NCBI RefSeq assembly: GCF_002797935.1
Contig: NZ_PGER01000001.1
Coordinates: 4,526,001 to 4,590,000 of the forward strand
Direction of reading: 5' to 3'
Length of the DNA: 64,000 nucleotides
Origin: Flavobacterium sp. 1
GTDB taxonomy: Bacteria; Bacteroidota; Bacteroidia; Flavobacteriales; Flavobacteriaceae
This document shows, in pieces, positions 30,104-61,828 of this stretch. The notes beneath the pieces were generated by a model, which was not told where the DNA came from, did no database searches, and was given only the letters and a program-made list of their open reading frames with translations. The first letter of the stretch is position 1. Each line of letters opens with the position of its first letter. The position numbers and the translations under genes are program-made.

Positions 30104-30190
30104 ATGCCCTAGCCCAGATGGAAACGGCATCCTGTTGTCCCGGGGTTCGGGACAACAGATATAGTGTACAGCTGGAAATAGCTACTAATC
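30104..30190 (+). ncRNA. Dispersed hairpin element, copy A
   Basis: This is one of four copies in the window of a ~90-100 base element. It reads CCCTAGCCCAGATGG, then a GGAAACGGCATC-like box, a variable stem (CTGTTGTCCCG 30132-30142 with CGGGACAACAG 30148-30158, loop GGGTT), then CAGCTGGAAATAGCTACTAA. The outer pair CCAG/CTGG here replaces CCTG/CAGG in copies C and D, a compensatory change. It lies between the beta-barrel terminator and trxA. It resembles what I remember of the Flavobacterium Flavo-1 RNA family, but I cannot confirm the match. Confidence 0.7.
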
Positions 30191-31873: not shown

Positions 31874-31947
31874 GGTTTGGTAGTTCAGTTGGTTAGAATA
31901 CATGCCTGTCACGCATGGGGTCGCGGGTTCGAGTCCCGTCCAGACCG
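31874..31947 (+). tRNA. tRNA-Asp (GTC), copy 1
   Basis: The 74-base gene has acceptor stem GGTTTGG/CCAGACC (one G-U), anticodon stem CATGC/GCATG with loop CTGTCAC (anticodon GTC), T arm GCGGG-TTCGAGT-CCCGT, and discriminator G. CCA is not encoded. It is identical to copy 2 at 32367-32440 over the mature tRNA. Confidence 0.97.
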
Positions 31948-32366: not shown

Positions 32367-32440
32367 GGTTTGGTAGTTCAGTTGGTTAGAATACATGCCT
32401 GTCACGCATGGGGTCGCGGGTTCGAGTCCCGTCCAGACCG
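32367..32440 (+). tRNA. tRNA-Asp (GTC), copy 2
   Basis: The 74-base tRNA is identical to copy 1 (GGTTTGG/CCAGACC acceptor, GTC anticodon, TTCGAGT T loop). CCA is not encoded. It has its own promoter and terminator and is the last unit of the tandem array. Confidence 0.97.
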
Positions 32441-33595: not shown

Positions 33596-33694
33596 TAAGG
33601 AGCCTTTTCCAGCTATTCGTTGCAATCTTTATGTTTTTAAAGAAAAAACATAAAGGATTTCCACTACTATCTGGGCTAGGACATTTGTTTTCAT
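33596..33694 (-). ncRNA. Dispersed hairpin element, copy B
   Basis: Read on the minus strand: ATGAAAAC (33694-33687), CCTAGCCCAGATAG, TAGTGGAAATCC, a variable stem, GATTGCAACGAATAGCTGG, then GGCTCCTTAA. The variable stem here is AT-rich (CTTTATGTTTTT 33627-33638 with AAAAACATAAAG), quite unlike the GC-rich stems of A, C and D, yet it pairs well. The outer CCAG/CTGG pair is kept. Conserved flanks with a replaced but pairing stem support a structured element. Confidence 0.7.
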
Positions 33695-56489: not shown

Positions 56490-56590
56490 ATGAAAACCAA
56501 AAGCCTTAGCCCTGATAGAAGTGGAAATCCTTGTGGACCGGGGTTCGGTCCACAAGATTGTAGCGGATAGCAGGAAATAGCTCCTAATTA
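56490..56590 (+). ncRNA. Dispersed hairpin element, copy C
   Basis: ATGAAAACC (56490-56498), CCTTAGCCCTGATAG, AAGTGGAAATCC, the variable stem CTTGTGGACCG/CGGTCCACAAG, GATTGTAGCGGATAGCAGG, then GCTCCTAATT. The inner stem differs from copy D (GGACC/GGTCC against GAGCC/GGCTC) and each still pairs. The outer pair is CCTG/CAGG. It lies between the BlaI promoter and the end of the dipeptidase gene. Confidence 0.75.
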
Positions 56591-59469: not shown

Positions 59470-59562
59470 GAGCTATTACCTGCTATCCACTTCAATCTTG
59501 TGAGCCGAACCCCGGCTCACAAGGATTTCCGCTACTATCAGGGCTAGGGAATCGGTTTTCAT
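59466..59562 (-). ncRNA. Dispersed hairpin element, copy D
   Basis: Read on the minus strand: ATGAAAACCG (59562-59553), CCCTAGCCCTGATAG, TAGCGGAAATCC, the variable stem CTTGTGAGCCG/CGGCTCACAAG, GATTGAAGTGGATAGCAGG, then GCTCCTAA. It starts inside the stop codon of the GH130 gene. With copy C it forms an inverted pair on either side of the dipeptidase, tRNA-Leu and GH130 genes. Confidence 0.75.

Positions 59563-60312: not shown

Positions 60313-61828
<1,516 letters not shown>

Follow-up and report, generated by a model that had tools for sequence, protein, structure and literature searches.

The hairpins examined here belong to an already known sequence family, Flavo-1 (Rfam RF01705), and on balance this family is probably an intergenic hairpin repeat in which a site-bound dock encloses an inner hairpin that is replaced by copying, the element being mainly selfish or neutral. 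The outer arms, about nine bases each, are inherited with the site, as is the adjoining flank. The inner hairpin shows little site memory; its two arms jointly resemble, often exactly, those of other copies in the genome. Flavo-1 copies are indifferent to orientation and to gene context.

Four copies in the window and the family in the genome

In the window, i.e., the whole stretch of 64,000 nucleotides that was analysed, all four hairpin copies described in the earlier note are present, and its guess that they may be Flavo-1 proved right. The Rfam covariance model (Infernal cmscan, gathering cut-off of 42 bits) matches each of them with 65.3 to 79.6 bits and E-values of 5e-12 to 6e-16, far beyond chance. 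All four possess type A outer arms. Copy 1 (30107..30182, forward strand, 65.3 bits) lies upstream of trxA and copy 2 (33602..33681, reverse strand, 79.6 bits) carries an AT-rich tip, both with the outer pair CCAG/CTGG. Copy 3 (56504..56581, forward strand, 75.8 bits) and copy 4 (59472..59549, reverse strand, 71.3 bits), the latter about 765 bases before the 16S rRNA gene, feature CCTG/CAGG instead. These outer pairs, as well as the inner stems and the joint changes of their arms, had been read correctly. Likewise, the upstream block common to three of the four copies was confirmed as ATGAAAAC, the 5' flanking block of type A, which precedes copy 3 at 56490..56497 (forward strand) and is also found at the orthologous site in relatives. 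The type A 3' boundary block TCCTAA, a consensus of 44 copies, follows at 56582..56587 on the same strand. The further blocks said to be shared are present in kind but less uniform than described: CCTAGCCC is exact in three of the four copies, with CTTAGCCC in copy 3; GTGGAAATCC is exact in copies 2 and 3, with GCGGAAATCC in copy 4 and ACGGCATCC in copy 1; and GGAAATAGCTCCTAA is exact in copy 3 only. In the same window, two tRNA genes with identical Rfam scores (31874-31947 and 32367-32440) stand 419 bases apart, and an rRNA operon, which includes two further tRNA genes, starts at 60314.

Further covarying copies, for which the earlier note had called, exist in large number. The own genome (G000; 5.35 Mb, single contig) holds at least 138 Flavo-1 matches at E<=0.001, 70 on the forward and 68 on the reverse strand; this is a lower bound, since scoring covered 150 of the 1590 first-look candidates and three further copies surfaced later. 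None was found in 14 control genomes. Under strict filters, 39 of 41 Flavobacterium genomes contain a match, and two near-complete genomes of the genus (G018 and G020) contain none. The spread over the phylum is patchy, with matches in 44 of 296 genomes, 36 of them over the cut-off. Carriage by phages was considered and set aside, as one Flavo-1 pattern had no exact match in viral contigs.

Reading the 138 copies revealed three outer architectures around one kind of inner hairpin. Type A is built as ATGAAAAC..CCCTAGCCCN / NGGAAATAGCTCCTAA and type B as ..GCAAAAAAGCAAAAT.TTTCC TTTTAGCCCC / GGGACGATAC..AAAATGCCTAATCTTTCTGCTCC, while type C shows GCGTTAGGGAT / AGCCCGACC, often followed by a small hairpin and then AACGC, which makes a three-way junction. 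A parser assigned 44 copies to A, 70 to B, 9 to C and 15 to others. The co-occurrence of type A/B with type C (rank correlation 0.94) is not an independent result, as model R2 used for the latter also matches A/B copies. Two sets of paired elements have their 5' ends facing each other, 20 and 126 bases apart (G000:C1:582870-583046, a type C with a type A element, and 957281-957568). By eye, a second small palindromic piece lies within the helix of several copies, of a AGTGAACTTCGTTTG type in L071, L058, L112, L064, L067 and L102 and of a GATTGCTTCG..CGCTCGTGTGCAG type in L093, L090 and L129; these pieces look as if another repeat had inserted into the Flavo-1 hairpin. In addition, the long tip CCCGATTTAGAAAAACAAGGCTTTTTTGCCGTAGTTTTTGTTAATCGGG and near forms occur in at least five G000 copies (L039:2501-2600, L128:2501-2600, and in L129, L076 and L115) and also in relatives, and this tip may be a structured module of its own.

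Whole Flavo-1 elements were gained and lost at sites over the time of the genus. In the best 80 of at least 567 trxA loci found, nearly all from Flavobacterium or its kin, 17 have an element within 330 bases upstream of the gene (model R1, E<=0.01), and its direction is the same in all 17. A quick tree was built from the 70 rows having both genes, among them these 17, one of which is the window's own; on it, presence at the trxA site changes at least eight times, with six changes forced by well-supported branches. Still, presence is clustered, as shuffling gave a mean of 15.3 changes against these at least eight. Three sites occupied in a relative but empty in G000 were read, with flanks too diverged for the exact ends by which a target-site duplication would be recognised.

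Site memory along the hairpin

The comparison between species was based on 40 stretches, 20 of G167 and 14 of G259 (both picked for element density) as well as 6 of G000. From 84 matches, 76 were kept after dropping 4 in the G000 stretches and the 4 weakest. Of these relatives' elements, 30 lie at a syntenic G000 site with an element and 3 face a G000 site without one; for the other 43, no G000 counterpart was among the fetched regions, and the element or the region may be absent from G000 or the copy may lie outside the 138. Two of the 30 pairs are of opposite orientation and were left out. The remaining 28 pairs, which represent 23 distinct G000 sites and hence are not independent, were set against 746 non-ortholog comparisons.

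Identity at orthologous sites falls from the flanks towards the tip. Median identities of orthologs and non-orthologs are 0.74 vs. 0.57 in the left flank (p 6e-14) and 0.79 vs. 0.57 in the right flank (p 1e-13), a slight site memory persists in the lower stems (0.83 vs. 0.78, p 0.004; 0.81 vs. 0.72, p 0.0008), and the tips differ hardly at all (0.47 vs. 0.41, p 0.05). A few pairs have flanks whose likeness does not exceed chance, and orthology there rests on gene order. Expressed as the share of possible excess identity, site memory lies at 0.35-0.62 across the flanks and the outermost ten bases of both ends and drops to 0.10-0.18 from base 10 (counted from 0) inward, at the same depth on both arms; this profile comprises 27 pairs in ungapped 8-base blocks, with one further type C pair left out.

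The likeness missing between orthologs is found within the genome. In these pairs a G000 tip matches the best other G000 copy at 0.93 on average and its ortholog at 0.55, and when the ortholog's tip was set against the best match among the other 137 copies of G000, it never won, tying twice and losing 26 times. The lower stems likewise gave no win for the ortholog (5 or 3 ties and 23 or 25 losses on the two sides), whereas the flanks gave 11 or 14 wins, 4 or 2 ties and 13 or 12 losses, even though a single ortholog competed with 137 rivals. Moreover, 11 exact tips are common to 33 of 122 parsed copies that have differing lower stems and outer classes, the commonest one (six copies) being combined with six lower-stem variants and with outer arms of type A (three), type B (two) and an unclassified type (one). 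Among 100 tips, 28 are identical to that of another copy, compared with 0-2 in five scrambled-stem sets, and two tips were found inverted. Inner hairpins thus appear to be exchanged between copies, both arms together, as far as can be read from species whose aligned neighbouring stretches are about 74-95% alike and in which no exchange was observed directly. Part of this pattern could also arise from rapid independent change within a limited repertoire, though hardly identities of 24-26 bases.

In the window, the part of copy 1 that appears to be exchanged spans 30117..30172 (forward strand), its limits being set ten bases in from the model ends at the boundary of the 8-base blocks, and a near-same form with 1-3 different bases occurs at the 56504 site of the relatives L246 and L247. 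The inner hairpin of copy 2 would span 33612..33671 (reverse strand) by analogy with the block boundary of the other copies. That of copy 4 covers 59482..59539 (reverse strand), the boundary again deriving from the 8-base-block analysis, and its syntenic counterpart at L337:11653 has another tip. In copy 3 the inner hairpin (56514..56571, forward strand) differs in relatives, and the outer arms there are of type A or C in other species. Of 29 relatives classed by eye at this site, which had the best-matching loci among 393 genomes with a match, 9 possess type A and 13 type C, and 7 have no full element in the 240 bases inspected. The type A elements carry either a TGATAG-type inner hairpin or the CAGATGG..GTTGTCCC one, which G000 itself carries at 30107.

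At this 56504 site, type A and type C sit beside the same terminator in different species, which would also suit an insertion hot spot, i.e., new whole elements that keep landing at the same intergenic points and leave unrelated copies at orthologous sites. The repeated changes of presence at the trxA site (at least eight) and the few pairs with flanks no more alike than chance point in the same direction. Nevertheless, fresh whole elements would swap their arms too, while the outer arms and outermost pairs are mostly inherited with the site where the inner part differs (e.g., L333 vs. L102), and a hot spot is accordingly considered quite improbable. Insertion targeted to terminators, comparable to group IIC introns, was rejected as well, as only a minority of the copies lie next to one: with bins summed and no background computed, our own scanner placed the end of a terminator in the 80 bases upstream of no more than 12 of the 138 copies, and a terminator facing the copy in the 80 bases downstream of no more than 21.

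Fold, gene context and the question of an RNA

Flavo-1 was filed as a probable RNA, not cis-regulatory, when it was described (Weinberg et al., 2010, PMC2864571), and the hairpin, its internal loops and its occurrence in Bacteroidota as given there are the same as those found here. It is also named in a review section on the most abundant small RNAs (PMC9029176). A functional RNA, residing in UTRs or small transcripts, binding protein by its purine-rich internal loops and kept in pairing by selection, is unlikely overall, although the fold provides substantial arguments for it. When 80 of the better-scoring copies among the 138, each 74-84 bases long, were aligned, bases paired in 94.2% of the cells, double compensatory changes occurred in 17 of 21 pairs, and the covariation score reached 0.590, compared with 0.205 after shuffling and 0.10-0.14 (maximum 0.141) with the pairs slid by 1-3 columns. 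Covariation is seen at every helix of the hairpin and the internal loops are conserved, as in RF01705, and an isolated covarying pair in columns 14/74 is paired in 72 of 80 copies. At paired positions, G-T is tolerated over A-C (39 vs. 16, p 0.003, with two loop-closing columns left out; 47 vs. 26, p 0.02, with these included), and the annotated strand is therefore the folded one. This excess does not discriminate between RNA and single-stranded DNA. Furthermore, the tip loops are of fixed sense, GGGGTTCGG being found 53 times vs. once inverted and TTTCCTTTAAAA 22 times vs. once, with other loops in 61 of the 138 copies. This one-sidedness fits a strand-specific role in RNA or single-stranded DNA. 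An RNA would also agree with sites being kept across species while the sequence turns over, as for the 30 of 76 elements and at site 56504.

The earlier note had argued that the compensatory changes mean a kept structure. The covariation itself is strong, but the inner hairpins of orthologous sites differ as a block with both arms at once, and thus much of the covariation need not be base-by-base compensation under selection. The joint arm changes between copies are real but probably stem largely from the inner hairpin arriving as a block. Still, the 94.2% pairing, the column pair 14/74 and exchange limits that coincide in the two arms point to selection on the fold, something for which a purely neutral repeat has no need. 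In the same sense, a strand-specific role would still be compatible with the near-perfect pairing, the fixed loop sense and the long persistence of sites.

The surroundings of the copies speak against an RNA. With a crude ORF calling (at least 90 aa), 133 of 138 copies overlap no ORF, 2 lie almost wholly inside one and 3 partly. Seen from the element, and by the same crude calling, the flanking genes are arranged as -- in 46 cases, ++ in 39, -+ in 29 and +- in 24, an arrangement similar to that of all gaps of at least 100 bases in the fetched regions (98, 121, 66 and 49 in the same order, element-bearing gaps included). The 138 copies therefore show no preference for a strand or for the 5' or 3' end of genes, and nothing marks them as 5' leaders, 3' UTR elements or terminators. 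The T run of an intrinsic terminator is absent, the downstream consensus being TCCTAAaaA (type A) or A-rich. The motif TAnnTTTG, which we take to be the Bacteroidota -7 promoter motif, is no commoner in the 70 bases upstream (10/138) than at 231-300 bases upstream (10/138). In the transcriptome of F. psychrophilum published in 2021, Flavo-1 hits lie sense or antisense to transcribed regions and many lie outside of any, which yielded no real functional clue (PMC9723704). The absence of matches from the near-complete genomes G018 and G020 under strict filters is a further point against a function as an RNA. Based on the ORF-free placement and the lacking strand or gene-end preference, an ordinary RNA role of Flavo-1 is unlikely. 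Thus, from the proposal of an RNA that might be mobile, the mobile part stands in the sense of gain, loss and apparent exchange, while the RNA part found no support in gene context or promoter motif.

Candidate mobilisers and a proposed route of copying

High copy number, intergenic position, hairpin formation, occurrence in either orientation and patchy distribution across species are features which Flavo-1 has in common with the REP, BIME and REPIN elements moved by RAYT proteins (PMC6006769, PMC3733652). That Flavo-1 is a REP-type repeat whose folded single strand is recognised and moved by a Y1 HUH transposase of the RAYT/IS200 kind is nonetheless very improbable. The imperfect hairpin would suit this explanation, a Bacteroidetes RAYT subclass (2.6) has been described next to "atypical secondary structures" that recur elsewhere in the genome (PMC6006769), and of two such RAYT genes in the own genome, one (L037) lies 93 bases away from a strong Flavo-1 copy. 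Against this, RAYT subclass 2.6 is missing in 19 of 41 genus genomes (E<=1e-5), including the high-copy genomes G004, G010, G029 and G030. In 20 genomes chosen from these 41 and searched for PF01797, 9 have no match (E<=0.001), and 8 of the 9, which also do not have RAYT 2.6, hold 10-86 copies, in counts that stop at 87. The copy number shows no difference by presence of RAYT 2.6 (p 0.13) or Y1 (p 0.38), a Flavo-1 match of any kind occurs at only 4 of 30 RAYT loci (1.5 kb on each side), and the copies show no strand trend along the own chromosome (by eye, origin not located). A Y1 HUH transposase (RAYT/IS200) is thus not required for high copy number, and mobilisation by RAYT/HUH is largely refuted by Y1-free genomes with many copies and the few RAYT loci with matches. 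The RAYT of locus L037 (L037:1246-1794, reverse strand, corresponding to G000:C1:462956-463501) has 182 aa and a YIHNNP motif like the reported subclass 2.6. Its Flavo-1 copy lies on one side only, while a different, GC-rich palindrome, GCGAGCGTCCCGCTCGTG, is found by eye on both sides and in more copies nearby; this palindrome may be the true repeat of that RAYT.

Flavo-1 differs from the REP/RAYT systems in having no linked or required Y1 transposase, in its longer and irregular helix and in an inner hairpin that differs while the outer arms stay. By eye, the GTAG or CGTC foot is absent from the consensus ends of 80 copies; RAYT subclass 2.6 was also reported without GT[AG]G (PMC6006769). 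Beyond the tested RAYT/Y1 candidates, no other mobiliser or insertion mechanism was found. An autonomous version with a gene between half-hairpins was rejected, as the right-half pattern occurs at 92 places of the own genome of which 84 are listed copies. Six of the other eight were fetched, three of these six bearing a long or weak copy (L325, L326 and L327); one of the eight is the weak L034 copy. The genes between close copy pairs are, by eye, ordinary chromosomal ones, the RAYT excepted. A curb on hairpins by SbcCD is not claimed. The hairpin nuclease subunit SbcD is over the cut-off in 7 of 41 genus genomes (34 without it at that cut-off) and present in 3 of 4 genomes with 0-1 copies (G018, G020 and G024; Fisher p 0.012, rank test p 0.052), all three of which have no match to the type C model. 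Nevertheless, four SbcD genomes have many copies (G019 with 66, G036 with 74, G534 and G546 with at least 15 each), and no effect appeared in 46 genomes outside the genus (p 0.81), which were partly chosen for having Flavo-1 matches.

Miniature non-autonomous insertions (MITEs) are short, non-coding and gained and lost at sites, and Flavo-1 is likewise. A general terminal inverted repeat is absent, as the own arms of a copy pair no better than swapped arms, and CCTGAACTCGATTATT-like inverted ends were seen by eye in some copies only. Quasi-palindrome correction and template switching at hairpins also change both arms together and would suit the two inverted tips; in Flavo-1, however, inverted tips are rare and a copy from another place in the genome appears to act as donor. 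Integron attC sites possess R and L boxes and stand in cassette arrays; Flavo-1 copies are dispersed, and no array was seen. In the open-licence literature that was searched, a body outside which most subscription papers lie, nothing was found on Flavo-1 exchange, docks or type C. The portions of the Flavo-1 papers at hand likewise contain no mention of copy exchange, gain and loss or a type C architecture.

For the preferred reading of a dock whose inner hairpin is replaced, the following route of copying is proposed. The Rfam-sense strand would form its hairpin while single-stranded, most probably during replication, and a second copy would serve as the template through ectopic gene conversion or template switching anchored in the conserved GATNGNAG / ACGGANAGC blocks. 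Such copying would homogenise the inner hairpins and keep their pairing good, pairing being perhaps also selected at the moment of copying, while the element would be tolerated between genes as a mainly selfish or neutral passenger. In a further reading, the inner hairpin itself would be the spreading unit, a gene-less cassette copied without HUH transposase into fixed docks of at least three kinds (A, B and C) by single-strand templating or an RNA intermediate. This seems doubtful; if true, it would represent a bacterial class of selfish elements which lives by dock conversion and not by transposition.

If the covariation stems largely from block exchange, covariation does not by itself prove that such families are RNAs, and the same control, a comparison of orthologous with paralogous identity along the helix, would be needed for other high-copy "RNA motifs". 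Flavo-1 has been listed as a probable RNA since 2010; its behaviour suggests a self-copying repeat more than an ordinary regulatory RNA.
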